Part shown: positions 1-12,028 of the stretch, piece by piece
How the letters are laid out: every line of letters starts with the position of its first letter
Numbering within the stretch: position 1 is the stretch's first letter
Assembly: GCA_012271025.1 (NCBI GenBank)
Contig: JAAXHF010000498.1
Location: forward strand, 1-12,028
Origin: Deltaproteobacteria bacterium
GTDB taxonomy: Bacteria; Desulfobacterota_B; Binatia; Bin18
Length of the DNA stretch: 12,028 nt
Reading direction: 5' to 3'
Made by a program: the position numbers and the translations under genes
Notes under the pieces: generated by a model
What the model saw: only the letters and a program-made list of their open reading frames with translations
The model's database searches: none
Told to the model about the DNA's origin: nothing

Positions 1-1
1 G

Positions 2-211
2 TGCTACCCGCTGAGCGTCCTGATAAACGGCCATCCGGTCGGCCGCCAGCTGCTGTACCGGGGCTGGCGGGAGTATGAGCTGTGGCTGGATCCGGCTTGG
101 GTCGTGGCCGGCGAGAACGAGGTACGGTTTCGGGTCGGACCGGATTTTCCGCCGGCCGGCCCCGAACAGCAGACCGTGGCCTTTCGCTCAGTGCGGATAG
201 CCCGCCCCTGA
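2..211 (+). CDS. 3' end of an unidentified protein (partial)
   Basis: Reading frame 2 is open from the window edge to a TGA at 209-211 and gives 69 residues of a C-terminus, so the start lies outside the window. The visible part alternates short hydrophobic and aromatic strands (VLINGHPVG, WREYELWLDP, GENEVRFRVG, FRSVRIARP). The pattern of an 'NG' turn, a 'W..YEL.L' strand, 'GENEVRFRV' and a final 'VRI' strand resembles a small beta-sandwich (jelly-roll-like) domain at the end of larger secreted or membrane proteins. I cannot name the protein. Codon use and GC content match the neighbours. The gene converges on the DUF493 gene, with only nine bases between the two stops. Confidence 0.6.
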   Translation, partial: CYPLSVLINGHPVGRQLLYRGWREYELWLDPAWVVAGENEVRFRVGPDFPPAGPEQQTVAFRSVRIARP

Positions 212-220
212 GCGTAGCGC

Positions 221-466
221 CTAGAAGACGATTTTGACCGTCGGGATGCTCTTGAGGGCGGTGAAGATCACATTCCGCTCTTCTTCGCTGTGGACCTGGA
301 GGGAGAAATGGAAGGACGTGTACTTGCCCGTTCTGCTGCGGTTTGACTCGCTCAGGTGATAGTCACAGTGCTCGAACAGGGTCGGGATGGTGTCCAGGAT
401 ACGCTGGCGGTCAGCCCCGATGATTTTGTAATACCACTGGCACGGATACCGGATTTCTGGCTTCAC
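221..466 (-). CDS. DUF493 / YbeD-like small protein
   Basis: This 81-residue protein has the layout of the DUF493 (YbeD) family, small cytoplasmic ferredoxin-fold proteins thought to be regulatory, with no established activity. The family features are an N-terminal YPCQWYYKIIG strand (residues 7-17), a helix with DTIPTLFEHC (25-34), the conserved S..GKY.S segment (SRTGKYTSF, 44-52), an 'FSLQVHSEEER' strand-turn (54-64) and a closing 'IPTVKIVF' strand at the very C-terminus. The length fits the family. The start is GTG (464-466), preceded on the minus strand by AAGGGA about five bases upstream; no in-frame ATG gives a better start. It lies 79 bp downstream of the ThDP enzyme gene on the same strand, with a hairpin between them, so co-transcription is possible but not assured. 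Confidence 0.75.
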   Translation of the reverse strand: MKPEIRYPCQWYYKIIGADRQRILDTIPTLFEHCDYHLSESNRSRTGKYTSFHFSLQVHSEEERNVIFTALKSIPTVKIVF

Positions 467-511
467 AGGATTCCCTTTGTTTGCAAACCGCTCTCCTCTT
501 CAGACAGACGT

Positions 512-535
512 GCGTGCCGCCGTAACGCGGCACGC
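512..535 (-). terminator. 9-bp hairpin after the ThDP enzyme gene, possible weak terminator
   Basis: A perfect inverted repeat, GCGTGCCGC (512-520) and GCGGCACGC (527-535), has a six-base loop and starts 11 bases beyond the TAA of the ThDP enzyme gene. In the direction of minus-strand transcription no T-run follows, so it is not a classical intrinsic terminator. It could be a Rho-assisted end or an RNA 3'-end stabiliser before the DUF493 gene. Confidence 0.4.
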
Positions 536-545
536 CGTCCCGCTC

Positions 546-2204
546 TTAATATCCGCCAAAGCCCATATCCGTGGTTGCCTGCGCTTCGGGGTCGGTGCAC
601 ACATTGACCAGGGCCGGCTTGCCGCTGGCTATGGCGCGCTCGATTGCGGCGCGGATGTCGTTTGGGTTCTCGACAAACTCGCCGTGGCCGCCCAACGCCT
701 CAACGACTTTATCGTAGCGCTGGTGGCCGAGTTCACGTCCGACATTGCCCATGCCCAGGCCACTGGCCGTCGCCCGACCGGTCTGGCGCGAGGTAAAGCC
801 GGCATTGTTCGACACGACCACGACAATCGGCAGGTTGTGACGGATGGCCGAGTCCATTTCCATGCCGTTCCAGCCAAACGCCCCGTCCCCGGACAAGACC
901 AGGACCGGCTTGTCCGGCTGGGCCGCCTTGGCGCCAATGCCGAACGGGACGCCAACGCCCATGCAGCCGTGCGGACCGGCGTTCAGGCTCGTCCCCACGT
1001 CATAAATGGGAATCGACTGGCGGGCAAAGTTGAGGATTTCGTGTCCGTCCACCACCAGGATCGTGTCGCGGCTGATGACCTCGCGCACTTCCTGGCACAG
1101 ACGCAGGGGATGGACGGGTACGGCGTCGGAGTGCAGCAGCGGCGCCGAGCGTTCTTCGTTTGAGCGCTGCTTGGCCGACAGCTGGGCGACCCAGGCCGTC
1201 TCCTCAGCCCCGTCGAACTTGCCGACCGCCTCCTCGGTCAGCTGCTGGAGGACCAGCTTGGCGTCACCAACAATCCCCACCTCAACACCCCGGTTATGGC
1301 CGAGGGAGCGGCCGTCGAGATTGACATTGATGAACTTGGCCTCGGCCGAAAACCGCGGCGCCCGCAGAAAGGACAGCATGGAGTTGGCCCGAGCGCCGAT
1401 GACGAGCACCACGTCGGCTTCCCGGAAGGCCATGGAGCGGGCGGCCGGAAACGCACGCTGGTGATCTTCGGGCACCACGCCCCGCCCCTGCGGGGTGGTG
1501 TAGAACGGAATGCCCGTGGCCTCGACAAAGTGTCGCAGCTCCTGGCTGGCCTCGGCCCACAGCACGCCACTGCCGGTGACGATGATCGGCTTGGCAGCCT
1601 GACGCAGTAGCTCGACCGCCCGCCGGATCAGGGCCGGGTCGCCGGCCGGCCGGCTCTCGACCCGGTACTGTTGCGGCCAGTACAGGCTGTCCTCTTCCAC
1701 CTTGCCGGCCAGGATGTCGCCGGGCAGGTCCAGGTAGACCGGTCCCTTCTTGCCGTCCATGGCCTCCCGAAAGGCGATGCTGACGTACTCCGGAATGCGC
1801 TGGACCATATCGACCCGGTAGGCGGCCTTGACCACCGGCCGCATCATCGCCACCTGGTCCATCTCCTGGAAGGCGTCCAGGGTGGTTGCCCGTATCGCCG
1901 CCGACCCGCCAATCGCCACAATCGGCGCGGAGTCGGCCCAGGCGTTGGCCAGCCCGGTGACGGCGTTGGCCGTGCCCGGCCCCGACGGGGTGATACAAAT
2001 GCCGGGTTTGCCGGTCACCCGGGCATAGGCGTGGGCCATCATGGCGGCGGCTTGTTCGTGACGCACATAGATGCCCTGCATGCCGTGGGTGAGACACGAG
2101 GCGGCCGTTCCCGAGGTCGGGCCACCCATCATGAAGAAAATGGTATCGACGCCCTCGTTCTTGAACGCTTGTCCGATGATCTGTTCGCCGCGGATGCTTG
2201 CCAT
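546..2204 (-). CDS. ThDP-dependent enzyme, acetolactate synthase / 2-hydroxyacyl-CoA lyase superfamily
   Basis: A full-length (552 aa) thiamin-diphosphate enzyme with the three domains of the acetolactate synthase / benzoylformate decarboxylase / oxalyl-CoA decarboxylase superfamily. The N-terminal Pyr domain carries the cofactor-activating glutamate in VRHEQAA (E50) and a SGPGTAN turn. The segment FQEMDQ.....P..KAAYRV resembles oxalyl-CoA decarboxylase and 2-hydroxyacyl-CoA lyase as much as acetolactate synthase. The C-terminal PP domain carries the Mg/ThDP motif GDGAFGWNGME...NN (439-467). The central domain is the usual FAD/nucleotide-type fold. The ATG at 2202-2204 has a strong site (AAGGAGGAACCC) overlapping the end of the upstream amidohydrolase gene, so the two are translated together. 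No regulatory-subunit gene is adjacent, which argues against biosynthetic acetohydroxyacid synthase. The substrate is unresolved: a 2-hydroxyacyl-CoA lyase or 2-oxoacid carboligase is likeliest. Confidence 0.85.
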   Translation of the reverse strand: MASIRGEQIIGQAFKNEGVDTIFFMMGGPTSGTAASCLTHGMQGIYVRHEQAAAMMAHAYARVTGKPGICITPSGPGTANAVTGLANAWADSAPIVAIGGSAAIRATTLDAFQEMDQVAMMRPVVKAAYRVDMVQRIPEYVSIAFREAMDGKKGPVYLDLPGDILAGKVEEDSLYWPQQYRVESRPAGDPALIRRAVELLRQAAKPIIVTGSGVLWAEASQELRHFVEATGIPFYTTPQGRGVVPEDHQRAFPAARSMAFREADVVLVIGARANSMLSFLRAPRFSAEAKFINVNLDGRSLGHNRGVEVGIVGDAKLVLQQLTEEAVGKFDGAEETAWVAQLSAKQRSNEERSAPLLHSDAVPVHPLRLCQEVREVISRDTILVVDGHEILNFARQSIPIYDVGTSLNAGPHGCMGVGVPFGIGAKAAQPDKPVLVLSGDGAFGWNGMEMDSAIRHNLPIVVVVSNNAGFTSRQTGRATASGLGMGNVGRELGHQRYDKVVEALGGHGEFVENPNDIRAAIERAIASGKPALVNVCTDPEAQATTDMGFGGY

Positions 2205-2215
2205 GGGTTCCTCCT

Positions 2216-3322
2216 TTAGCTGTCCAAATTATACAGCCGGACCGTGTTGTCACAGGTGAGTTTCTTCCTGACCTGGGGTGACAGCGAGGCCATGTGCTCG
2301 TCAATATACTTCTGGGAATGGGGCCAGGTGCTATCCGGGTGCGGATAATCCGAGGCCCACAGGACTTTGTCTTCGCCAAGCTCGGACAGCAGCTTCAGAC
2401 CAATATCGTCCTCCTCAAACGAGACCCAGATCTGCCGCCGGAAGAGTTCGCTGGGTTTGAGCGACAGGTGGACCATGTGGTGCAGCTGCTTGTCGTACTC
2501 GTGATCCATCCGCCACAGCAGATACGGCACCCAGCCGATCCCGGCTTCGGCCAGGACAATCCTGAGCTGCGGATACTTCTCCAGCGCACCGCAGAAAATA
2601 ATCTCACACAGGGCCTCGTCGAGCTGCATGGGCACCGCACATACAAAGGCCGCCGCCTGGCCGCGGCTGGTGTCTGTCACCCTGGCACTCCGGATCCCAC
2701 CCCCGAGGTGAAAGCTGATCGGAATGCCCGCCTCAGCCGCCACCGCCCAGACCGGTTCCCAGTCTTCGTGAAAGACCGGCTTGACCGCATCAAACACTCC
2801 GAACAGCGCGCCCTTGAGACCCAGCTTGGCGACCCGCTGGAGTTCCTTTTGGGTGGCTGCGGGATCGTGCATGGGCAGAATGGGGATACCGATCAGCCGG
2901 TCGGGAGCGGCCGTACAGAAGTCGGCCAGCCACGAGTTGTAGGCCTCAAGACAGGCGACGTGCAGGGCTGAGTCGGTAAACGACAGGGGCAGGGGAGGGC
3001 CGTAGATGACGTGCGCATCAATGCCATCACGGTCCATGTCTTCCAGCCGATACTTCGGCGTTGAGGGCCGAAACACGCCCGGTTCCGGCTCTTCATCGAC
3101 GCCTGCGCGAGGAATCGCACCGGTCAAGCGCGGGCCCTGCATCGAGCCGTGGTTGCCAAACGCCCACGGTTTGCCCTCGCACACCCACATCGGCCCGTTG
3201 GCGGTGTCGGCCACCCGTGGCGCCTGGGCCTTGAACCTGGCCGCCACCCGTTCCTGCCACAGATTGGCCGGCAGGTAGGACAGATCCATATGGTCATCAC
3301 CAGAAACGAATGTGTACTCCAT
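2216..3322 (-). CDS. Metal-dependent amidohydrolase / ACMSD-like decarboxylase (COG2159 type)
   Basis: A 368-residue TIM-barrel protein of the amidohydrolase_2 family, which includes 2-amino-3-carboxymuconate-semialdehyde decarboxylase and many uncharacterised metal hydrolases/decarboxylases. Visible signatures are the N-terminal D.H motif (SGDDHMDL, D9-H11), DMDRDGIDAHVIYGPP (95-110), a strand-end histidine in SFHLGGG (H205), LAEAGIGWVPYLLWRMDHEYD (257-277, E259) and the metal-ligand aspartate in WASDYPHPDSTWP (D325). D13 sits where classical members have the second histidine of HxH, as in many uncharacterised relatives. The start is the ATG at 3320-3322, preceded by GGAGGG at seven bases; the frame stays open far upstream, but that stretch is antisense to the oxidoreductase gene. 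It is the first gene of a run with the ThDP enzyme, 11 bp apart. The substrate is unknown, with a role in degradation of a carboxylated or ring-derived compound inferred. Confidence 0.85.
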   Translation of the reverse strand: MEYTFVSGDDHMDLSYLPANLWQERVAARFKAQAPRVADTANGPMWVCEGKPWAFGNHGSMQGPRLTGAIPRAGVDEEPEPGVFRPSTPKYRLEDMDRDGIDAHVIYGPPLPLSFTDSALHVACLEAYNSWLADFCTAAPDRLIGIPILPMHDPAATQKELQRVAKLGLKGALFGVFDAVKPVFHEDWEPVWAVAAEAGIPISFHLGGGIRSARVTDTSRGQAAAFVCAVPMQLDEALCEIIFCGALEKYPQLRIVLAEAGIGWVPYLLWRMDHEYDKQLHHMVHLSLKPSELFRRQIWVSFEEDDIGLKLLSELGEDKVLWASDYPHPDSTWPHSQKYIDEHMASLSPQVRKKLTCDNTVRLYNLDS

Positions 3323-3523
3323 AACAACACCCTCCTTCTTTACACGGTCGTCAGTCCCTGAGGCTGCCTGGCTCTCGGGCGCTGGCGCCGAAGATGTTGA
3401 GCCGAATCGCTGGAAAACCTCCCCGCCCTTTTCCCTCACCCGACGTGGCACAGTCAAGGGACCTATGCGCAGCCGCAGCATTGGGATAGTACACAAGACA
3501 CACCGCGCTGAAGGGAGAGCGAT
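3323..3523. promoter_or_regulatory. Divergent promoter region, amidohydrolase / quinone oxidoreductase
   Basis: This 201-bp gap separates two divergent start codons and must hold both promoters if the flanking runs are separately transcribed. On the minus strand a TTGACT hexamer (3457 down to 3452) matches the -35 consensus at five of six, but I see no convincing -10 at the right spacing. A short palindrome GGCGC-TG-GCGCC lies at 3378-3389. No regulator gene is adjacent. Confidence 0.3.
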
Positions 3524-4492
3524 ATGAAAGCAATTCTGTTCGAGACAGTCGGCGGACCCGAGGTGCTGCAACTGGGCGAGGCGCCCATTCCCGAACTCAG
3601 ACCCCGCAAGGTGTTGATCAAAAATCAGGCCATCGGGATCAACTTCGCGGATACGCGCTTCCGTCAGGGCCAGTATGTCATGCAGCCCAGACTCCCGGAC
3701 ACGCCCGGGCTCGAAGCTGCGGGCGTGGTCGAAGCGGTCGGCGAGGGGGTGGGCCATATCGCGCCGGGCACCCGGGTGGCGGCCATCGGCATGCGGACCT
3801 ACGCCGAATACGCGCTGGTCTCGGCCGACCAGGTCATGCCGCTGCCCGATTCGGTCAGTTTCGAGCAGGGCGCGGCCTTTCCGATCCAGACCCTGACCGC
3901 CTACCACCTGCTGCACACCTGCCATCAGACCAGCCCGGGCCAGACCGTGCTGGTGCATTCTGCGGCCGGCGGGGTGGGTATTGTCGCCATGCAGATCGCC
4001 AAGGCGGCCGGCGCGCGGGTGATCGGCACTGTCTCGAGCGACGCCAAGGTCGCCCTGGCCCAGGAGTATGGAGCCGACGCGGTCATCAATTATGAGAGCC
4101 AGGACTTTGCCGAAGAAGCCAAGCAGCTGACCGACGGCAAGGGCGTGGATCTGATCCTCGACGCGGTGGGGCAACCGACCTTTGCCGCAGGGCTCACATG
4201 CCTGGCCCCATTCGGTCACGCCATCCTGTACGGTCAGGCTGGCGGCGCGCCCGAGCCGCTCAACGTCTTTGGGCTGTTCCAGAACTCGCTCAAGGTCAGC
4301 TGCTTTGGCCTGTATACGGCCTCGGCCATACCCGAGCTGCACCAGAAAGGGATTACCGAGTCGTTCCGCTTGATGGAGGAGGGCAAGCTCAAGCTCCTGG
4401 TCGGCAAGAGCTACCCCCTGGCCGAGGCGGCCGAGGCGCACCGCTTCATGGAATCCCGCCAATCGGTCGGCAAGCTGATCCTGACCCCCTAG
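3524..4492 (+). CDS. NADPH:quinone oxidoreductase-like zinc-free medium-chain dehydrogenase
   Basis: A 322-residue member of the zinc-independent medium-chain dehydrogenase/reductase family (quinone oxidoreductase / zeta-crystallin group), expected to reduce quinones, enones or other activated double bonds with NADPH in the cytoplasm. The N-terminal GroES-like domain has MKAI.....GGPEVLQLGE (1-19) and the NFADTRFRQGQY segment (40-51); the cysteine/histidine zinc ligands of alcohol dehydrogenases are absent. The Rossmann domain has the family nucleotide motif HSAAGGVG (145-152) and 'YGADAVINY'. The C-terminal 'SVGKLILTP' ending is typical. The start ATG follows GGGAG at a good distance (3513-3517). 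It heads a plus-strand pair with the CoA-transferase family gene 109 bp downstream. The family is broad and the substrate cannot be inferred. Confidence 0.88.
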   Translation: MKAILFETVGGPEVLQLGEAPIPELRPRKVLIKNQAIGINFADTRFRQGQYVMQPRLPDTPGLEAAGVVEAVGEGVGHIAPGTRVAAIGMRTYAEYALVSADQVMPLPDSVSFEQGAAFPIQTLTAYHLLHTCHQTSPGQTVLVHSAAGGVGIVAMQIAKAAGARVIGTVSSDAKVALAQEYGADAVINYESQDFAEEAKQLTDGKGVDLILDAVGQPTFAAGLTCLAPFGHAILYGQAGGAPEPLNVFGLFQNSLKVSCFGLYTASAIPELHQKGITESFRLMEEGKLKLLVGKSYPLAEAAEAHRFMESRQSVGKLILTP

Positions 4493-4528
4493 GCTTGAGC
4501 CGGGCTCGCCCTGGGCACCCCCCCGGCC

Positions 4529-4559
4529 TGTGGGCAACCACGGGGGGATTGCCCCTACA
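4529..4559. repeat. Palindromic intergenic repeat of the GTAGGGGC...GCCC type
   Basis: Between the oxidoreductase and CoA-transferase genes lies an imperfect palindrome: TGTGGGCAA (4529-4537) pairs with TTGCCC-CT-ACA (4549-4559), a 6-bp stem, a two-base bulge and three more pairs. Inner CC/GG pairs can extend it. Read on the minus strand it begins TGTAGGGGCAATCCC, a form that I recall as a frequent interspersed palindrome in several bacterial phyla. Only one copy is visible here, so its repeat nature rests on recognition and not on this window. Confidence 0.5.
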
Positions 4560-4601
4560 CGAGGTGGACCGGCCCCCAGTTCAGCATAGAAGGAGTTCGG
4601 T

Positions 4602-5927
4602 ATGGACTGGCATGCGCTGTGCGGCGACAAACTCGTCACTCCCCAACAGGCGGTCGCCCTCATCCGGCCGACTGACACCGTCTATATTGCCGGCATACAG
4701 GCCACCCCGTTTGCCCTGTGCCAGGCCCTGGTTGAGCGGCAAGACACGCTGCGCGGCCTGCGCGTCAATACCCTGGTGTCGTTTTACGACTGGGACACTC
4801 CCGGCCTGAGCGACGCCTTCCGGCTGGAGTCGTGGTATCTGAGCCGGCGCGAGCGCAAGCTGATGCACAAGGGTGGCCTGGACTACATTCCGGTCTCGTA
4901 TTTCCGGGCCGAGGCCCTGCCCCACGGCATCGATGCGCTTGACGTGTACATGGTCAGCGTGTCGCCGCCGGACCGCCACAGCTATTGCAGCTACGGCACC
5001 AGCGTCGGCATGTCGCCGCTCATGACCAAACAGGCCAGGACGATCATCGCCGAGATCGACCCGAGCTTCATCCGCACCGGCGGCGAGAATTATCTCCACA
5101 TCTCGGCCATCGACCGCTGTGTGGAACGCCCGCCCAGCGTCAGCTCACCGACAATCAGCCCCGAAGTCTACAGCCAGGAAAAACAGGACGCGATTGACAC
5201 GATCTGCATGTCGATCACCAACGAGCTGATTCAGGACGGCGACACGATTCAAATCGGGGCCGGCGATATGACCAGCCCCCTGCCCGCCTATCTGTACGGC
5301 AAAAACGATCTGGGCATGCAGACTGAGATCATCCCGCCCGGCGTGGTCGGCCTCGTCCAGGCCGGCGTGCTGACCGGCACGAACAAAACCCGTCATACCG
5401 GAACGGTGGTCGGCACCGGCTTTCACCCCATGCTCAGCCCTGAAGAGCTGGACTATATTGACGCCAATCCGGTCTTTGAGCTGTACGATTTCAACTATAC
5501 CGACGATATCCGGCTGCTGTGCCAGGACCCGCGCTTTACGGCGATCAATAACGCGCTCAGCATCGACCTGACCGGCCAGGTCGCGTCCGAGTCGATCGGT
5601 CCCCAGCAGTTTACCGGACCGGGCGGCCAGACCGCCTTTTGCATTGCCGCCAGCCTGGCCGGCAGCAAATCCATTATTGCCCTGCCGTCAAGCTCACTCA
5701 GCGGGCCAGACCGCCGTCGGATTTCCCGCATCGTCCCCACCCTCGCACCGGGGACGGTGGTGACCACGCCTCGCGCCTTTGTCGATTATGTGGTGACCGA
5801 GTACGGCATTGCGACCCTGCGGGGCAGGACCCTGCGCGAGCGCGCCCAGGCTTTGAGCGCCGTTGCCCATCCGGACTTTCGGGACGAGTTGCGGACACAG
5901 GCCGAATGCCTGCACGGCGCCGGCTGA
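4602..5927 (+). CDS. Acetyl-CoA hydrolase/transferase family protein (4-hydroxybutyrate CoA-transferase-like)
   Basis: A 441-residue protein with the two halves of class I CoA-transferases of the acetyl-CoA hydrolase / 4-hydroxybutyrate CoA-transferase family, which move CoA between acyl donors and free acids through a glutamyl-CoA intermediate. Visible signatures are 'QIGAGDMTSPLP' (217-228); LGMQTEIIPPGVV (237-249) with the likely catalytic glutamate E242; FTGPGGQTAF (337-346); SKSIIALPSSS (355-365); and the C-terminal run SRIVPTL.PGTVVTT (375-389), YVVTEYGIATLRG (396-408), AHPDFRDEL (422-430). Q240 sits where I recall many relatives having His (G.HTE). Length is normal. ATG 4602 follows AAGGAG at six bases. 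It follows the oxidoreductase on the same strand and ends four bases before the convergent ATL gene stop. The acyl substrate is not readable; hydrolase activity is also possible. Confidence 0.88.
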   Translation: MDWHALCGDKLVTPQQAVALIRPTDTVYIAGIQATPFALCQALVERQDTLRGLRVNTLVSFYDWDTPGLSDAFRLESWYLSRRERKLMHKGGLDYIPVSYFRAEALPHGIDALDVYMVSVSPPDRHSYCSYGTSVGMSPLMTKQARTIIAEIDPSFIRTGGENYLHISAIDRCVERPPSVSSPTISPEVYSQEKQDAIDTICMSITNELIQDGDTIQIGAGDMTSPLPAYLYGKNDLGMQTEIIPPGVVGLVQAGVLTGTNKTRHTGTVVGTGFHPMLSPEELDYIDANPVFELYDFNYTDDIRLLCQDPRFTAINNALSIDLTGQVASESIGPQQFTGPGGQTAFCIAASLAGSKSIIALPSSSLSGPDRRRISRIVPTLAPGTVVTTPRAFVDYVVTEYGIATLRGRTLRERAQALSAVAHPDFRDELRTQAECLHGAG

Positions 5928-5931
5928 GGCC

Positions 5932-6297
5932 TCAGGACTGGGTCTTCCATGTGGGCGGTGTCCAGCGCTTCGGACCCGCCCAGCGGTAGGTGGCCAGATC
6001 AACCTTGCCGTGGCGACTGAACCGAACGCCCTCGTCTTCGAGCAGCCAGCGTTGCTGCTCGGCCCGCAGCAGGTCACCGCGAATGCTGATGCCGCCCGAG
6101 GCGTTAATGACCCGTTGCCAGGGAACTGTGCGGGACAGCTGGGGGGGCAGATGGCGCAGGGCCGTGCCAACCGCCCGCGGCGCCCGGGGTGCGCCAAGCA
6201 GAGCGGCCACCTGCCCGTAGGTCACGACTTTGCCTTTGGGAACGCGGGCGACCAGACGGTAGACGGCCGTATGAAAGGCGGGAAGACCGGCGGCCAT
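5932..6297 (-). CDS. Alkyltransferase-like (ATL) protein, non-catalytic MGMT homologue
   Basis: A 121-residue protein containing only the DNA-binding half of O6-alkylguanine-DNA alkyltransferases. It has KGKVVTYGQVAALLG (21-35), the arginine-finger region APRAVGTALRH (39-49, R41), then PWQRVINASGGIS (59-71). Tryptophan W60 replaces the methyl-acceptor cysteine of the PCHR motif, the hallmark of ATL proteins. These flip out and bind O6-alkylguanine without repairing it, and flag the lesion for nucleotide excision repair. The family's usual length is 100-130 residues. The start ATG (6295-6297) lies only four bases after the stop of the SnoaL-like gene and lacks an obvious ribosome-binding site, so coupled translation is likely. 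It is the last gene of the sigma/anti-sigma cassette and converges with the CoA-transferase family gene. Confidence 0.92.
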   Translation of the reverse strand: MAAGLPAFHTAVYRLVARVPKGKVVTYGQVAALLGAPRAPRAVGTALRHLPPQLSRTVPWQRVINASGGISIRGDLLRAEQQRWLLEDEGVRFSRHGKVDLATYRWAGPKRWTPPTWKTQS

Positions 6298-6301
6298 AGG
6301 C

Positions 6302-6715
6302 TCAGGACTCAGCCCCGATCTGCTGCATCAAGCCCAGGGCGTCCCAGGCTACCCAGGCTTCGGCAATTCGGCCATCGGCAATCCGATAGATGGCAATGCC
6401 CACCACCGACACGTTCTTGCCGCTGGGAGCAATGCCCATGAAATCGCCCCGATGGGTGCCCCGAAACGTCCAGCGTCCGACCACCCGGTCCTCCTCGGCA
6501 AGCAGGTCTTCGATCTGAAAATGGACATTCGGAAAACCACCCCGGACCGTTGAGACAATCTGTTTCACATCCTCCGGGCCGCCGCCAAAATCATAGCCGG
6601 TCGGATAATGGCTGACATAATCGGGAGCGATCAGCTCGTCGATCAGCTCGATCCGGCCCGCGTTCAAGACCTCGTCAAAATAGCGCCGGAAGATGGCTTT
6701 ATTGGCCTCTGACAT
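6302..6715 (-). CDS. SnoaL-like polyketide cyclase / ester cyclase family protein
   Basis: A 137-residue single-domain SnoaL-like (NTF2-fold) protein. Typical features, in order: 'FRRYFDEVLNAGRIELIDEL' (9-28), APDYVSHYP (30-38, H36), the FPNVHFQIEDLLAEEDRVVGRW segment (61-82), FRGTHRGDFMGIAPSGK (84-100) and IYRIADGRIAEAWVAWDALGLMQQIG (109-134), with D125 in the place of the acid residue of SnoaL cyclases. The annotated start (ATG 6713-6715) has GAGAGG just upstream; a longer frame begins 17 codons earlier but has a cysteine-rich, unfamily-like extension. It lies 82 bp after the anti-sigma/alkyltransferase gene, with a hairpin between, and four bases before the ATL gene. The family includes enzymes and non-enzymatic ligand-binding proteins, so no reaction can be assigned. 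Proximity to a sigma gene hints at a sensing role, but this is inference. Confidence 0.85.
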   Translation of the reverse strand: MSEANKAIFRRYFDEVLNAGRIELIDELIAPDYVSHYPTGYDFGGGPEDVKQIVSTVRGGFPNVHFQIEDLLAEEDRVVGRWTFRGTHRGDFMGIAPSGKNVSVVGIAIYRIADGRIAEAWVAWDALGLMQQIGAES

Positions 6716-6771
6716 GGCGTTCCTCTCCCTCTTGATTGCTGTACACAAAAGGCAGGGCCGACACAAGACTG

Positions 6772-6790
6772 GCCCGCGCCGGACGCGGGC
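6772..6790 (-). terminator. Hairpin after the anti-sigma/alkyltransferase gene
   Basis: The perfect inverted repeat GCCCGCG (6772-6778) / CGCGGGC (6784-6790) with a five-base loop begins eight bases beyond the TGA of the fusion gene. No T-run follows on the minus strand, so it may only partly terminate transcription or stabilise the upstream message, leaving read-through into the SnoaL-like gene possible. Confidence 0.35.
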
Positions 6791-6797
6791 GGGCCGC

Positions 6798-7775
6798 TCA
6801 GCCCGGACCGAACAGCGGGCTCGCGTCCACGGGGTGCAGCTCGGGCTGACACCCGGGGCAGGGCTGATAGCCGAGTTCGCGGGCTCGGGCCAGGGACGGG
6901 ATCAACACCCGTTCGGCGGCGGTCTGAGCGTGCAGGTCGGCGCAGTCGGGCCGACACAGGCGGGAGCCGGAACGCCAGCCCACATACATCCGGGCGGCGG
7001 CAATGGCCAAGCCGCGTCGGGTGTGTCTGACCGGAATGCCCTCGGTCTCAAGAATGGCCCGTTTGGTCTCGACCAGATTGCCGGCATAGCCGGTCAGGCG
7101 CCCATCGCTGCCGAGCACCCGATGACACGGAATATGGAGCGGAACCGGGTTGTGACGCAGGGCTTGGGCGACCGCGCGAACCGCCCGGGGTTGGCCGATG
7201 GCGTCGGCCAGACCCTGATAGCTGATAACCGTACCGTAGGGAATGGCTGCGGTGGCCCGCAGCACGCGGCGCTGAAAGTCGCTGCGCATCAGGCGATCAT
7301 CCAGCGTCCAGTCCAGCGTCCGGCGTGTTCCGGCAAAATACTCGTCAAGCTGTTGGACGAGGGCTGTGGTCTCCGGCCCGGCCTGCTCGGGCCTGAAATC
7401 GTGCTCCAGGCGCGTGAGCTGGGTCGAGGCTTGATTTTGGCGCGCGAACTCGACAAACACCACGCCTCTGTCTGTCGCTCCGAGCAGAATGTCTCCGACC
7501 GGCGAGTGCCACAGCTGGACGCGCAACCGCGGGCGCTGCGGCTCGTACAGCCGCGCCTCAAGCGCCTGCCGGGCACGTCGCAGGCCCTCGGCTTCTTGGG
7601 CGGGAGCGGGCCAGTCGTGTAGCCGGGCGCGTAGCGTCCGATACTGTTCCAGCAGCTCGCTACACACAGGACAGCCAGCCACATGCCAGCGCACCTGCTG
7701 GCTCAGCTCGGCCTGCGCCTCGCCAAACGCCTCGGCAATCAGCCGGTTTTCCGAAAATCCGCACGTTTTCGCCAT
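6798..7775 (-). CDS. ZAS anti-sigma zinc finger - O6-alkylguanine-DNA alkyltransferase - Ada metal-site fusion
   Basis: This 325-residue soluble protein has three recognisable parts. Residues 1-50 form a ZAS anti-sigma zinc finger with C5, H31, C35 and C38, the C-x25-H-x3-C-x2-C spacing of RsrA-type anti-sigma factors. Residues 84-246 are a complete MGMT/Ogt domain: N-terminal fold (SPVGDILLG, 91-99), IPYGTVISYQGLADAIG (178-194), arginine finger R200, N209 and PCHRV with acceptor C217. Residues 262-312 match the methylphosphotriester-accepting metal site of Ada: LCRPDC (C274, C278) and YQPCPGCQPE (C306, C309); C274 aligns with E. coli Ada C38. The Ada AraC-type DNA-binding domain is absent and the Ada site is C-terminal instead of N-terminal. 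No membrane segment is seen. ATG 7773-7775 lies three bases after the sigma stop, with AGGAGG inside the sigma gene. It likely repairs O6-alkylguanine and restrains the sigma factor; damage-triggered release is inference. Confidence 0.93.
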   Translation of the reverse strand: MAKTCGFSENRLIAEAFGEAQAELSQQVRWHVAGCPVCSELLEQYRTLRARLHDWPAPAQEAEGLRRARQALEARLYEPQRPRLRVQLWHSPVGDILLGATDRGVVFVEFARQNQASTQLTRLEHDFRPEQAGPETTALVQQLDEYFAGTRRTLDWTLDDRLMRSDFQRRVLRATAAIPYGTVISYQGLADAIGQPRAVRAVAQALRHNPVPLHIPCHRVLGSDGRLTGYAGNLVETKRAILETEGIPVRHTRRGLAIAAARMYVGWRSGSRLCRPDCADLHAQTAAERVLIPSLARARELGYQPCPGCQPELHPVDASPLFGPG

Positions 7776-7778
7776 AGC

Positions 7779-8318
7779 CTAATCCTCCTGAAGGGCGAGC
7801 CGCAGCTTGCGCAGCGCCTGATAGACATGCGCCCGCGCGGTATCTTGGGAACACGCCAGATTGCTGGCGATGACCTGATAGTCCAGCCCCTCGAACTGGC
7901 GTTGGACAAGCGCGGTGCGCTGCCGGAAGGGTAATGTTTCAATGGCGGCAAGCAAGGTCTGAGTCGTCTCGTTGGCAGCCATGGTTTCCTCCATATCGGC
8001 TCCGTTTCCAGACGGCGATGCAGTATCGTCGGTCCGCTCGTGGTTGCGCGTCACCACCACCCGGCCTCTGCGTTGGCGGTCGCGCGCGTAGTTCTTGGAC
8101 ACGTTGATGGCGATCCGCATCAACCAGGCCCGATAGTTCATCTCAGCCGGCCGATTTTGGACGCGCGGATACGCCCGGTAGGCGCGCAAGAACGTCTCCT
8201 GAAACAGATCCTGAGCGTCGTGTGGATCGCGGGTAAAGCGCAACAGATAGCCGTACACCGCGCCCTGGTGACGCGTGACCAACTCGGCAAAGGCCTGCTG
8301 TTCGGTATGTGTCGCCAT
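7779..8318 (-). CDS. ECF RNA polymerase sigma factor
   Basis: A 179-residue group IV (extracytoplasmic function) sigma factor. Region 2 covers about residues 8-85, with the core-binding DPHDAQDLFQETFLRAY stretch (31-47) and the -10 recognition part RAWLMRIAINVSKNYARDRQRR (63-84). A polar, variable linker follows (90-117). Region 4 (118-175) holds the -35-binding helix-turn-helix 'LDYQVIASNLACSQDTARAH' (145-164), followed by VYQALRKLR. The length is standard with no C-terminal extension. The start is ATG 8316-8318; GAGGTG lies somewhat far (13 bases) upstream and no better in-frame start exists. The fusion gene begins three bases after its stop, the classic sigma/cognate-anti-sigma arrangement, so this sigma is expected to be held by that zinc finger and perhaps to drive its own operon. 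I see no clear GGAAC-type -35 upstream of it. Confidence 0.95.
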   Translation of the reverse strand: MATHTEQQAFAELVTRHQGAVYGYLLRFTRDPHDAQDLFQETFLRAYRAYPRVQNRPAEMNYRAWLMRIAINVSKNYARDRQRRGRVVVTRNHERTDDTASPSGNGADMEETMAANETTQTLLAAIETLPFRQRTALVQRQFEGLDYQVIASNLACSQDTARAHVYQALRKLRLALQED

Positions 8319-8344
8319 GTGTAGAGAAAGACACCTCAGCCGGC

Positions 8345-8388
8345 CGTTTGTGAAAACGCTTGCGCCGTCGGGAGCCAGACAGTATATG
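8345..8388 (+). promoter_or_regulatory. Possible promoter/operator in the sigma - exported protein divergent gap
   Basis: The 74-bp gap between the sigma start and the divergent gene holds an inverted repeat CGTTT-GTGA-AAACG (8345-8358). On the plus strand TTGCGC (8360-8365) and TATATG (8383-8388) sit 17 bp apart, four of six matches each to the sigma-70 consensus. On the minus strand TATACT (8386 to 8381) overlaps this -10, but without a clear -35. All of it is weak evidence; a bidirectional control point is plausible only because both genes must start here. Confidence 0.3.
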
Positions 8389-8392
8389 CTGC

Positions 8393-9106
8393 ATGGGTAT
8401 GCTTGCGTTCGTCACCTCGGTCGTCATGGCCTGGGCACTCGCCACGCTCTTGGCCTCCCCGCCAGCGGCGGATCGCTTGCCGGCGGCCGACTTCTTCCCC
8501 CTGGCCATGCATAATACCTGGACCCATGAGGTCAGGTTCTCGGGCGGGGACTATCACTACTACATGACCGAGACCGTCATCAAAGACAACTGGCCGCTGC
8601 TCGGCCAACAGTCCTACGTGGTTGCCGAGGACTACGAGCCGCTCACCGACCGCGCCCCTGAGGCCAGAAGCACGGTTGCCTATTTTCGCAAAAACGGATT
8701 TCTCTACCGCTATCCGTGGCTGGACTCCGAGGGCGACCGGATCTGGGACACCCGGCTGGGTCAGGGGCTGGATCAAATCATGCCGAGTCCGTTTGTGGAG
8801 AGAACACGCTGGCGCATGAACCTGAGCACCCGGGTCATGGCCAGCGGCGGGCAGAGCAGCTCATCGGCCACCGCCTGGATCGATCCGAGCGCCATACAGG
8901 TGCCGGCCGGCACCTTTCGCAACTGCCTCAGAGTCGAAACGGTGACGATCAGCTTCGTGCCAGACCCGCGCAAAAAGAGCGCGGAATTTGCGCTGCGGCA
9001 TACCGAGTGGTACGCCCGGGGCGTCGGTCTGGTCAAAGCCATCAGCAGCGAAGGCACGGCGCAAAAAAGTGTGACAGAGCTGCTGAGGTATCGGATTCGT
9101 GAATAA
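8393..9106 (+). CDS. Exported protein of unknown function
   Basis: A 237-residue protein starting with an apparent signal peptide: MGMLAFVTSVVMAWALATLL, then ASPPAADRL, with a possible cleavage near residues 22-27 and no lipobox cysteine. The mature part is beta-rich: FFPLAMHNTWTHEVRF (35-50), YHYYMTETVI, RNGF/LYRYPWLD-type strands, an IQVPAGTFRNCLRVETV segment and a WYARGVGLVKAISSEGT stretch near the C-terminus. The order 'FPL...NTWTYxV', 'VPAGTF.NCL.V' and 'WYA.GVGLVK' is common to periplasmic or surface-associated hypothetical proteins; no function is known to me. The start is ATG 8393 or ATG 8399. Neither has a good ribosome-binding site, and a TTG six codons before the signal peptide's hydrophobic part is less likely. 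It diverges from the sigma gene by 74 bp and is followed 17 bp later by the nitroreductase gene. Confidence 0.8.
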   Translation: MGMLAFVTSVVMAWALATLLASPPAADRLPAADFFPLAMHNTWTHEVRFSGGDYHYYMTETVIKDNWPLLGQQSYVVAEDYEPLTDRAPEARSTVAYFRKNGFLYRYPWLDSEGDRIWDTRLGQGLDQIMPSPFVERTRWRMNLSTRVMASGGQSSSSATAWIDPSAIQVPAGTFRNCLRVETVTISFVPDPRKKSAEFALRHTEWYARGVGLVKAISSEGTAQKSVTELLRYRIRE

Positions 9107-9123
9107 GGAGCACCCCAATCACC

Positions 9124-9807
9124 ATGACTGACCACGACCTGTTTGACATCATGTATACCTGCCGCAGCATGCGGCGCCTCAAACCCGACCCCGTTCCGGA
9201 CGAGTTGATCTATCGCATTATCGAGGCCGGCACCCAGGCGCCGAGCGGCGGTGGCGTCCAGGCCTGGCGCTTTGTGGTGGTAACCGACCCGGAACGCAAG
9301 CAGCAGATTGCCGATCTCTACCAGCACGGCTGGCAGATTGCCCTGAAGCAGTACGCCGCAGCCAGCCTCACGCCCGAAAACGACAAAAATGTCCGCGCCG
9401 CCTCCTACCTGGCCGAGCACCTGGCCGAGGCGCCGGTGCTGCTCGTACCGTGTCTGCGGGAGCGCCGCCTGCACGCCGAGCGCAAGACAGGCCCCAACGC
9501 CCATAACTTCATTCGGATCATCAGCGGCAGCATTTACCCGGCGGTGCAGAATATCCTGCTGGCCTGCCGGGCGCTGGGTTTGGGCGCCACGCTGACCTCG
9601 GTGACCACCCAGTATGAAGCCGAGATGAAAAAAATCCTCGACCTGCCGGAGACAATCACCACCTATGCGTTGATTCCCATTGGCTACCCCATGGGCCGCT
9701 TCGGGCCGGTCACCCGCCGAGCGGTTGAAGAAGTCAGCTGGCTGAACGCCTACGGCACCCCGTTTCCCCGGCCGGCCGGCTATTCGGGCAGAAAGTCGCC
9801 AGTCTGA
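9124..9807 (+). CDS. Nitroreductase-family FMN oxidoreductase
   Basis: A 227-residue nitroreductase-superfamily flavoprotein, expected to reduce nitro compounds, quinones or other electrophiles with NAD(P)H using FMN. The signatures are the N-terminal phosphate-binding RSMRRLKPDPVPDELI (14-29), EAGTQAPSGGGVQAWRFVVV (34-53) for flavin contact, and the C-terminal IYPAVQNILLACRALGLGATLT segment (residues 137-158), then 'IPIGYPMGRFGPVTRR'. The length is normal. The start ATG 9124-9126 lies 13 bases after AAGGAG (9105-9110), which overlaps the stop of the exported-protein gene, so the two are probably one transcript. A detoxifying reductase divergent from an alkylation-repair cassette is suggestive, but the shared regulation is unproven. 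The end converges on the class V PLP enzyme gene with 42 bp between. Confidence 0.88.
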   Translation: MTDHDLFDIMYTCRSMRRLKPDPVPDELIYRIIEAGTQAPSGGGVQAWRFVVVTDPERKQQIADLYQHGWQIALKQYAAASLTPENDKNVRAASYLAEHLAEAPVLLVPCLRERRLHAERKTGPNAHNFIRIISGSIYPAVQNILLACRALGLGATLTSVTTQYEAEMKKILDLPETITTYALIPIGYPMGRFGPVTRRAVEEVSWLNAYGTPFPRPAGYSGRKSPV

Positions 9808-9849
9808 ACAGTCTGGCCCTGCCACACAAGGAAAAGACCGTCCGCCAGC

Positions 9850-10989
9850 CTAGCCCACCGCCCTGAGCAACGCCTCGGCCAGAGCCTGGATATCCTCGGG
9901 ACGATTATAGACGTGGGGCGACACCCGGATCGAGCTGCCGCGCTGGGATACGTACACCCGGCGCCGGCGCAGCTCGGTAAGAATGGCCGGGATCTGCCCG
10001 GCGTCGGGCAGCCGCACGCCGAACAGATGGGCGGAGCGCTCGGCACCAAGTGAGAATGGGCTGTCTGCCAACGCCTCGGCCAGCCCGCTGCTGAGCCGGG
10101 CGCAATAGGCCCGAATATTGGCGATACCCCAGCGCTCCAGCTGTTTCAGCGCTTCGAGCAGCATCGGCACCAGGATGAAGTTGGACCGCTCGCCGGCGTC
10201 AAACCGCTGCGCTCCGGGCTGAAACTCGGACTGGTAGTTGATCAGAGAGCTGAAGTCCTGACTGTTTTTGCGGGTGATCCAGTTGTGTTCGAACGGCTCG
10301 GCGTCCAGCAGTCGGTCGCCCACCACCGCAAAACAGTACTGGTAGGGACCGAACAGCCACTTGTAGCCGGCGCACACCAGCAGGTCCGGCCGTACCTGGG
10401 CGCAGTCAAACGGGACAGCCCCGATCGACTGCGTGCCATCGACAATGAACAACGCGCCGACCTCGCGTGCCCGGCGTCCAATCCGGTCCACATCAAACGG
10501 CGTACCGTCCGTCCAGTGGACCGTGCTGAGCGTCACCACTGCGGTGTTGCGGTCTATGGCGTCAAGGAGACGGGGAGTCCAACCATCGGTCGTCCCCTGC
10601 TCCGGACGCTCCACAAAACGCAGGCGCGCTCCGCCGTGCTGACACTGCGCCATCCAGGCATACACATTACTCGGAAACTCCTCGCCCGGGATGACCACGT
10701 TCTGGCCCGACCGCAGCCGCGTATTGTGACTGGCAATGGCAATGCCGTAGCTCACCGCCGGCACCAGCGCGACCCGCTCTGGCGTAGTATTGATCAACCG
10801 GGCGAACAGGCAACGCAACTCGTGTGTTTCGTCAAAAAAATCAGCCGGGACAAGCTCGGCCGGATTGACCTTGCGCCGCAGCCCGGCAATGCCGGCCGCC
10901 TCGACCGATTTCAGCAGCGGCGACATGTACGCGCAGTTGAGGTAGTGCTGGTCCTCGGGCAGGGTGAAGAGATGGCGCTGGCATTCCAT
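9850..10989 (-). CDS. Class V aminotransferase-fold PLP enzyme (isopenicillin N epimerase / cysteine desulfurase-like)
   Basis: A 379-residue fold-type I PLP enzyme of the class V family. Seen: LNCAYMSPL near the N-terminus (17-25), VALVPAVSYGIAIA (73-86) for phosphate binding, PGEEFPSNVYAW (101-112), TVHWTDGTPFD (156-166) with H158 for ring stacking, VDGTQSIGAVPFD (183-195) with D184 and Q187, and the PLP lysine K210 in 'CAGYKWLFGPYQYCF'. The C-terminal domain ends in RRVYVSQRGSSIRVSPHVYN. There is no cysteine-rich loop of a NifS/IscS active site that I can identify, so a desulfurase assignment is not favoured; epimerase, kynureninase-like or lyase activity is open. Start ATG 10987-10989 lacks a strong ribosome-binding site and sits seven bases after the MaoC stop, so translation is probably coupled. 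The frame is open further upstream but overlaps the MaoC gene. Confidence 0.85.
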   Translation of the reverse strand: MECQRHLFTLPEDQHYLNCAYMSPLLKSVEAAGIAGLRRKVNPAELVPADFFDETHELRCLFARLINTTPERVALVPAVSYGIAIASHNTRLRSGQNVVIPGEEFPSNVYAWMAQCQHGGARLRFVERPEQGTTDGWTPRLLDAIDRNTAVVTLSTVHWTDGTPFDVDRIGRRAREVGALFIVDGTQSIGAVPFDCAQVRPDLLVCAGYKWLFGPYQYCFAVVGDRLLDAEPFEHNWITRKNSQDFSSLINYQSEFQPGAQRFDAGERSNFILVPMLLEALKQLERWGIANIRAYCARLSSGLAEALADSPFSLGAERSAHLFGVRLPDAGQIPAILTELRRRRVYVSQRGSSIRVSPHVYNRPEDIQALAEALLRAVG

Positions 10990-10996
10990 AGCGGTG

Positions 10997-11500
10997 TCAG
11001 GCCTGTTTGACTTCAGGGAAGAGGTCCTGCTTTGGCGCGTGAGCCTTTTTCCAGACCATGACGTTGCGCGTATATTTACACACCAGAGTGCCGTCCTGTT
11101 TGACGCCGCGCGTTTCGACCTTGACAATGCCCCACTGGGGTTTGGACCGGGACTCGCGCGTTTCCAGGACTTCGGATTCGGAGTACAGGGTGTCGCCGGC
11201 AAACACCGGGTTGGGCAGGACGACATTATCCCAGCCCAGGTTAAAGCCGTTCTCGCTTACATCGGCCACGCCCAGCCCGGCCACAATCGCCAGGGTCAGC
11301 ACACTATTAATCAGACACTGGCCGAACTCGGTCTGTTTGCCGTACTCGGTATTAAAATGGATCTGGTTGGTGTTATTGGTCAACAAAGTAAACCAGATAT
11401 TATCGTTTTCGGTCACCGTCCGACCGAGCCGACAGCGGTACACGTCCCCGACCTCAAAATCCTCATAATAACGACCTTCCCAACCGGCTTTGACTGGCAT
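10997..11500 (-). CDS. MaoC-like acyl-CoA hydratase/dehydratase
   Basis: A 167-residue single hot-dog domain of the MaoC family, which hydrates or dehydrates CoA thioesters. Visible features: YYEDFEVGDVYRCRLGRTVTE (11-31), the central LLTNNTNQIHFNTEYGKQTEFG (39-60) with the catalytic histidine H48, LGWDNVVLPNPVFAGDTLYSESEV (88-111) and TRGVKQDGTLVCKYTRNVMVWKK (130-152). In (R)-specific hydratases the pattern is D-x-N-P-x-H; here N43 takes the aspartate position and Q46 the proline, as in the larger subfamily that includes itaconyl/mesaconyl-CoA hydratase-like proteins. Start ATG 11498-11500 follows AGGAGG at eight bases; an upstream ATG would add 16 unfamily-like residues. It is the first gene of a pair with the class V enzyme. 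The acyl-CoA substrate is unknown. Confidence 0.87.
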   Translation of the reverse strand: MPVKAGWEGRYYEDFEVGDVYRCRLGRTVTENDNIWFTLLTNNTNQIHFNTEYGKQTEFGQCLINSVLTLAIVAGLGVADVSENGFNLGWDNVVLPNPVFAGDTLYSESEVLETRESRSKPQWGIVKVETRGVKQDGTLVCKYTRNVMVWKKAHAPKQDLFPEVKQA

Positions 11501-12028
11501 AGTGCTTTCCTCCTGTCCGAGAACATGGGTTTCCCGGCACTCTACCACGCCCGGAGCGGGCAGGAGAAGGGGCCAGAGCTGTGGGACGCCGCCCTTCTGT
11601 GTCCAAGTACACCGTAGAATACTATCTGCTGAGAATTTGCTGCATACATCAGAAAGGTGCTATTTTAAAACATTGTTTTGTTTAATATTTCTCAAAAAGT
11701 ATAGAGGGGCTCTCAGACCTAAATTAAGGAAAATCAATAGTTTATGGAGCCATACACAGTCTCCTGCAAGCTGAAATCTCGCACGTTCGGCAGAACACAA
11801 GCAGGATCGTATAGTCACATCTTATTATCGCATCACCAATCGTGCTAGAGTGCCCCGACAAGCCAACCCACCCCGCCGCTAGCGCAGTTTCATCCTATTG
11901 TGAGTCATGGGCGGAGAGGCGAAGTCGGCAGGGTATGAGGCAGGCGGGGAAGCCGGGAGCGCGGGCGTCCCGCCCGCCTCTTCAGACGTATCGGAAATCA
12001 CCGAAAATGCTCTAGGGTCCGGACTCAT
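11501..12028. other. Gene-free region with AT-rich island
   Basis: No convincing coding sequence is seen over 528 bp. The part next to the MaoC gene (11501-11616) is GC-rich and should hold its promoter. From about 11617 to 11790 the DNA turns clearly AT-rich, with runs such as TATTTTAAAACATTG and TTTAATATTTCTC, unlike anything else in the window. From about 11855 it is GC-rich again and ends in a palindromic repeat. Short open frames cross the AT-rich part but lack ribosome-binding sites and family features. No tRNA, CRISPR or transposon end is recognisable. Confidence 0.6.
11957..11980. repeat. Palindromic GCGGGC-GTCCC-GCCCGC repeat
   Basis: GAG-C-GCGGGC (11957-11966) pairs with GCCCGC-CTC (11972-11980) around a five-base loop, leaving one bulged C. 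Reverse-strand reading begins GAGGCGGGCGGGACGCCCGC, a form I recognise as a common interspersed element that yields spurious 'GGTPALP' peptides in many genomes. A minus-strand frame from 12028 to about 11879 encodes exactly such a peptide and is not counted as a gene. Confidence 0.5.

Follow-up and report, generated by a model that had tools for sequence, protein, structure and literature searches.

A zinc anti-sigma-type domain fused to MGMT and an Ada-type site in Binatota: a predicted suicide-repair anti-sigma factor for an ECF sigma factor

A stretch of 12,028 nt from a member of the Binatia, in the little-studied phylum Binatota (GenBank assembly GCA_012271025.1, contig JAAXHF010000498.1, positions 1 to 12,028; here called the window) raises the question of what is achieved by a protein in which a zinc domain of the anti-sigma type is joined to two cysteine sites known from DNA alkylation repair. 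In a first-pass annotation, made from the sequence alone, it was proposed that this protein senses alkylation by repairing it and then releases its extracytoplasmic function (ECF) sigma factor. Our analysis supports this proposal as the best available interpretation, which is strengthened by the sigma linkage and the promoter evidence added here: the fusion protein is probably a suicide-repair anti-sigma factor, which would keep the ECF sigma factor in check for as long as the cysteines with which it repairs DNA remain unalkylated. New is an ECF-type promoter, which precedes the sigma gene in all 15 sequences; in three genomes it also stands in front of an unlinked gene for an O6-alkylguanine alkyltransferase (MGMT).

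The open reading frame (ORF) extends from 7775 to 6798, starts with ATG and codes for 325 amino acids. It is the single unbroken frame that had been described, but it is encoded on the minus strand; the plus-strand reading of 6798-7775 is interrupted by two stops. The following parts were assigned (ZAS, zinc-binding anti-sigma):

6798..7775, minus strand: ZAS-MGMT-Ada fusion protein, 325 amino acids, predicted suicide-repair anti-sigma factor (ORF, Pfam, alignment, structural model and fold matches)
7602..7775, minus strand: residues 1-58, anti-sigma-type zinc domain with C5/H31/C35/C38 and predicted helices 9-16, 22-34 and 36-54
7536..7601, minus strand: residues 59-80, linker and helix 59-76, candidate sigma2-binding fourth helix (model pLDDT about 60-66; role by analogy, PMC7406223)
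7035..7529, minus strand: residues 83-247, complete O6-alkylguanine alkyltransferase (MGMT) domain
7125..7127, minus strand: C217, alkyl-acceptor cysteine within the PCHR motif
6840..6998, minus strand: residues 260-312, C-terminal Ada-type methyl-acceptor zinc domain (Pfam Ada_Zn_binding)
6954..6956, minus strand: C274, counterpart of the Ada C38 methyl acceptor (alignment to 1adn)

The domain profiles bear out the composition that had been suggested. In the fusion protein, Pfam identified DNA_binding_1 (E 2.7e-31), Methyltransf_1N (1.5e-7) and Ada_Zn_binding (1.1e-5), and both the PCHR active site in DNA_binding_1 and the ribonuclease-like N-subdomain of MGMT/Ogt are present. The zf-HC2 profile reached only E 0.086 on the window protein, under its cut-off; with E 0.1 as the limit, 23 of 50 homologues matched it, the best at 9.1e-7. 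Residue conservation was counted in the best 120 of 3485 homologues: C5 is kept in 117 of these, H31, C35, C38, C217, C278, C306 and C309 each in 119, and C274 in all 120, with every departure from the nine key residues being an alignment gap. These residues stand where the first-pass annotation had placed them and are conserved far beyond chance.

For the N-terminal part, a helical domain carrying HxxxCxxC and an upstream ligand was found, as in class I (ZAS) anti-sigma factors. When the model was compared to solved structures, the zinc part matched the anti-sigma factors ChrR and RslA, the middle matched MGMTs and the C-terminal part matched methylated N-Ada; for residues 2-67, the best fold matches were ChrR and RslA, both solved together with their sigma factor. 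The VIA-align list is a second look at matches already made by Foldseek. Class I anti-sigma domains grip region 4 of the sigma factor with helices 1-3 and region 2 with the fourth helix (PMC7406223). The model of residues 1-80 has this arrangement, with helix 59-76, the candidate fourth helix, predicted at low confidence. A profile search with the N-terminal part, which admits only lengths near that of the 82-residue query and leaves longer anti-sigma factors outside its reach, returned 14 short proteins (66-166 amino acids), one of them called RsiW by its source. Of the other collections, PHROGs gave one family, located on the MGMT part of the fusion protein, while a PADLOC search gave no match and Rfam none within the window.

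The predicted partner of such a domain is encoded immediately upstream, together with a predicted promoter:

7779..8318, minus strand: ECF sigma factor, 179 amino acids (Sigma70_r2 E 6.6e-18, Sigma70_r4_2 E 2.5e-12)
8329..8356, minus strand: predicted ECF promoter TTTTCACA-N13-GGTGTCT, with TTCACA beginning 36 nt ahead of the sigma start codon (fixed spacing in 15 of 15 sequences; genome scans with controls)

The stop of the sigma gene lies 3 nt ahead of the fusion ORF start, and a sigma gene is located directly upstream of the fusion in all 14 family loci (loci are given as L, genomes as G) that have this region on the contig. Within the window's family, 15 of the 16 genomes have the zinc form of the fusion, 13 of them in one piece; in G001 and G012 it is split by contig ends, and G004 is without it. 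Outside this family it was found in G113 (L046) and G274 (L155), single genomes from two different families, each time behind its sigma gene, so that the four zinc ligands recur across three bacterial families at identities down to 39%. The nearest named relatives of the window are contigs of a Candidatus Binatota metagenome-assembled genome. An ECF sigma partner and a fusion conserved in related genomes, both implied by the first-pass annotation, were thus found, and a frameshift or assembly joint between the domains is excluded by the intact frame and by the 13 family genomes with an undivided fusion. Chance or an assembly artefact as the origin of the arrangement was rejected on the basis of residue conservation and of the recurrence across genomes and families.

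The linkage was then counted for 72 MGMT or alkyltransferase-like (ATL) genes on listed Binatota loci, with L046-L080 and L105-L134 skipped, L039 (contig end) and L100 (duplicate) omitted and only part of the MGMT matches fetched; in L093 and L151 the Ada match is a separate adjoining ORF and was scored as not fused. Wherever the MGMT has an Ada site fused to its C-terminus, a sigma gene is immediately upstream (21 of 21 genes); among the MGMT or ATL genes without a fused Ada site, one in 51 (L043) is so placed. The window's sigma factor finds the linked sigma factor as its best match in 7 of 8 genomes, the exception being G023. In a tree of 41 sigma factors, from which the background loci L126, L128 and L134 were dropped for want of a tblastn match and the sigma factors of L094-L097 were left out, 19 of the 21 linked sigma factors fall on one side of a branch with support 95/97, and the two outside are actinobacterial. 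A single origin of the whole linked-sigma group was recovered in 28% of bootstrap trees.

These data bear on the alternative that the protein only repairs DNA, the zinc domain being a vestigial or structural cap, the sigma factor being controlled by its synthesis, and the fusion being made as one product. Many sigma-linked MGMTs are indeed without a zinc domain, and the sigma group ECF122 is classed as lacking an anti-sigma factor (PMC8999054). Nevertheless, the zinc ligands have been retained in three families, the gene lies directly behind the sigma gene in every zinc-form locus that has this region on the contig, and by fold the N-terminus resembles two anti-sigma factors whose structures were solved in complex with their sigma. 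Moreover, an autoregulated sigma factor without inhibitor would be expected to stay on. This alternative is therefore considered most improbable.

That the sigma factor is autoregulated is suggested by the promoter element. Upstream of the sigma gene, TTTCACA-N13-GGTGTC (with the variants AGTGTC and GGGGTC) was identified with invariant spacing in the window and in 14 family loci. All 15 sequences also fit TTCACA, 14 nt and G[GT]GTC. A scan of 17 genomes gave 23 promoter sites, compared to 2 for a reversed-pattern control; 15 of the 23 precede the sigma gene, three precede unlinked MGMT genes (G005, G007 and G010, ending 45-47 nt before the gene start) and five lie elsewhere. A refined pattern with two extra fixed bases, derived from seven sigma and three MGMT promoters, retained 22 of 22 sites in 16 genomes (15 at sigma genes, three at MGMT genes and four at other genes) and none for the reversed control. 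The two extra bases are present at all four remaining family sites, none of which was used in the derivation, with a chance of about 1.5e-5 as estimated for equal base frequencies. The scan adds evidence for a tie between this sigma factor and alkylation repair, and three of the seven unlinked family sites are located ahead of MGMT genes. Against this stands that no more than 3 of 14 fetched loci with a stand-alone MGMT gene have the site, and on the same count the idea of a promoter at every MGMT gene was rejected.

The other sites precede an epoxide hydrolase and a short-chain dehydrogenase (both by Pfam), and a second dehydrogenase and an SRPBCC-dehydrogenase pair (both by eye); one G113 site faces away from the sigma gene, toward a small ORF. 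As the epoxide hydrolase gene (L077:213-1379, minus strand) is preceded by a copy of the element found at the sigma gene, detoxification of alkylating epoxides may belong to the regulon as well.

In L032-L038, all from one genus, the promoter is located 155-230 nt upstream of the sigma gene. The leader of these loci contains an ORF of some 29 codons with a hydrophobic translation (MSxxRSLLIVWFSLTCFLGMLAPLP..., by eye), possibly a leader peptide. In L075 and L079, the promoter-bearing unlinked MGMT gene is followed by an ORF of 103-106 amino acids with an Ada-zinc-like C-x2-C end (by eye).

In RsrA, oxidation of the zinc site of the ZAS domain, or its modification by electrophiles, leads to release of the sigma factor, and the C-H-C-C spacing of redox-sensing ZAS proteins is known for RsrA and ChrR. 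The fusion protein might likewise be a zinc-thiol sensor, with MGMT and the Ada site as its repair cargo. Its C-H-C-C ligands have the redox-ZAS spacing and are the ones kept in 117-119 of 120 homologues, and the genes for an epoxide hydrolase and for dehydrogenases that follow the promoter element would suit the detoxification of electrophiles. In addition, soluble class I anti-sigma domains are enriched in zinc motifs, which fits intracellular redox sensing (PMC7406223). However, the zinc site cannot be the general sensor, because the link between sigma factor and MGMT persists in loci without it, namely in L041-L044, L094-L097 and four actinobacterial operons, and the MGMT genes at three of the seven unlinked promoter sites also speak against this reading. 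We regard zinc-thiol sensing as rather unlikely.

In the other families whose N-terminus was read, the sigma-linked MGMT-Ada protein is without the zinc domain. The MGMT of L043 (6546-7226) and its homologues P0121-P0240 are linked to a sigma gene, have no Ada site and carry a non-zinc N-terminal domain. When this N-terminus was compared to the zinc domain by hhalign, a colinear, weak match was obtained (probability 1.5, E 0.014), and the model of a relative, P0160, has three N-terminal helices with a mean pLDDT of 72.3. Kinship between the two N-termini is only suggestive.

For the C-terminal site, which had been described as Ada-like, the methyl-acceptor cysteines were confirmed, whereas Ada's promoter-reading arginines are lost. 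C274, C278, C306 and C309 align with C38, C42, C69 and C72 of E. coli Ada, and the cysteine at the C38 position and the four zinc cysteines are present by Pfam, alignment and fold match. In Ada, methylation of C38 is the switch (PMC4437013, PMC10779285), and R45 and R71 read the A box (PMC4437013). R45 is replaced by L281 (Leu in 118 and Arg in 1 of the 120 homologues) and R71 by G308 (Arg in 6 of 120), and no helix-turn-helix (HTH), the AraC type included, was matched in the fusion protein by Pfam up to E 1. Because the A-box arginines are replaced and no HTH was found, the site looks like a sensor rather than an Ada-type activator: the acceptor chemistry appears to be kept, and the reading of promoters appears to be lost. 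Among 10 aligned promoters, no column above 1.1 bits was found in the 70 nt above the -35 box. An Ada-box activator model was rejected, given the absence of a conserved upstream element and the loss of the A-box arginines.

The same observations argue against a related possibility, in which the methylated protein would bind promoter DNA by its MGMT or Ada part and bring along a tethered sigma factor, with no inhibition involved. A contact between E. coli Ada and the sigma subunit of RNA polymerase is named in a title cited in PMC4437013, and the affinity of Ada for DNA is increased by methylation (PMC10779285). With the A-box arginines, an upstream element and an HTH all missing from the picture, such a sigma-recruiting activator is very unlikely.

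For the suicide-repair anti-sigma factor, the following course can be proposed from the domains and their known relatives. Helices 1-3 of the zinc domain would grip region 4 of the sigma factor, and the fourth helix would grip region 2. After damage, C217 would take over the alkyl group from O6-alkylguanine and C274 the methyl group from a phosphotriester; the irreversibly altered fusion protein would then release the sigma factor, with C274 perhaps assisting C217. Both the sigma binding and the methylation-triggered release are inferred. Of the two cysteines, C217 is the likelier main trigger, since sigma-linked relatives without the Ada site (L043 and the Arthrobacter and Tsukamurella operons described below) keep the MGMT core. 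The freed sigma factor would transcribe its own operon and thereby provide new sigma factor, a repair-competent anti-sigma factor and the ATL lesion-binding protein, and in some species it would also drive a further MGMT. Because each anti-sigma molecule repairs only once, the circuit would count lesions, and it would close by itself once unmethylated protein is again in excess.

To our knowledge, no anti-sigma factor described so far takes as its signal a repair reaction by which it is itself irreversibly altered. If the proposal is true, the number of repair events is coupled directly to the amount of free sigma factor with a built-in shut-off, giving a modular, self-resetting alkylation sensor. 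In the known regulators of the adaptive response (Ada, AdaA, Cada2), self-methylation yields a DNA-binding activator; here it would lead to the release of a dedicated sigma factor.

Several known systems share features with the fusion protein. ChrR and RslA, like the fusion, are class I zinc anti-sigma factors with an N-terminal helical zinc domain, encoded directly behind an ECF sigma gene, but the fusion has, as its sensory part, a DNA-repair enzyme of the suicide type together with a methyl-acceptor zinc site. E. coli Ada, too, unites in a single chain an MGMT domain and a methyl-acceptor zinc domain with four cysteines, and it controls the alkylation response, as is predicted for the fusion; however, the domain order of the fusion is reversed, with the acceptor site at the C-terminus, it differs in the HTH and A-box arginines as described above, and its predicted output is an ECF sigma factor and not activation at ada boxes. 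In Caulobacter Cada2, the regulatory methylation occurs at the PCHR cysteine of the MGMT domain, the same cysteine proposed for the fusion, and this methylation is the switch, a C-to-G mutant being constitutively on (PMC10957082). Cada2, however, is a DNA-binding activator with B-box and RLHD regions, neither of which is conserved in the fusion, where the dedicated sigma factor is the predicted target: the B-box SPHFQR was not found in the window protein, and the letters RLHD at its residues 51-54 are not conserved in the homologue alignment.

As for novelty, no anti-sigma factor fused to MGMT or Ada was found in the literature, as covered by titles and the beginnings of abstracts of open-licence PMC papers, with subscription journals mostly outside. 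The association of a sigma factor with MGMT is already in print as ECF122. This group has a conserved 6-O-methylguanine DNA methyltransferase neighbour and no cognate anti-sigma factor, and its mechanism is listed as unknown in PMC8999054. The window's sigma factor shares the conserved MGMT neighbour and is likened to ECF122 by the description of this neighbour only. In contrast to ECF122 as classed there, a domain of the anti-sigma type and an Ada site are both part of the MGMT neighbour itself. What is new is the combination of domains and, if the proposal is true, a suggested mechanism for ECF122-like systems.

Beyond the Binatota, a search of a plasmid collection gave 402 records with matches, none of which covers more than 80% of the query; in four of the six records examined, a sigma gene overlaps an MGMT gene. 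The Arthrobacter operon (L054:1764-4907) consists of genes for MGMT, sigma factor, MGMT, an AlkB-like protein and a methyladenine glycosylase, and the Tsukamurella operon (L057:1890-4848) of genes for MGMT, sigma factor, MGMT, a 2-oxoglutarate oxygenase and AlkB, while Streptomyces and Nonomuraea plasmid records contain a sigma gene followed by MGMT-Ada. The AlkB-type and glycosylase genes tie these sigma-MGMT units to alkylation repair, and the actinobacterial operons fit the description of ECF122. There is an evenly balanced chance that a second, sigma-based adaptive response exists, in which the anti-sigma factor is a suicide repair enzyme that counts lesions by its own consumption, and that the same pairing of sigma factor and MGMT, with N-termini of other kinds holding the sigma factor, governs MGMT/AlkB/TagI operons in Actinomycetota and would explain ECF122. 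As an observation in its own right, L054 and L057 are compact actinobacterial plasmid cassettes for alkylation repair with their own ECF sigma factor.

In the window, two further genes follow the fusion:

6302..6766, minus strand: SnoaL-like protein (Pfam E 4.1e-39; true start probably an ATG near 6718, by comparison with relatives)
5932..6297, minus strand: ATL protein with PWQR instead of PCHR (Pfam; best solved relatives 2kif and Atl1 3gva)

Of the 14 family loci, 10 have the SnoaL gene downstream of the fusion; it is absent from L027, and in L031, L036 and L040 the contig ends. The ATL gene is found in the same 10 loci. Two ORFs that are absent from the window were noted by eye between the fusion and SnoaL genes of relatives, one VOC/glyoxalase-like (L027, L029, L030 and L031) and one lipoprotein-like with a YADDFVSGTGR-type motif (L028-L030, L032, L033 and L038). 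On the opposite side, a divergent gene (8360-9106, plus strand) with a DUF3108-like match under the cut-off starts at the far edge of the sigma promoter and is present in 13 of the 14 family loci.
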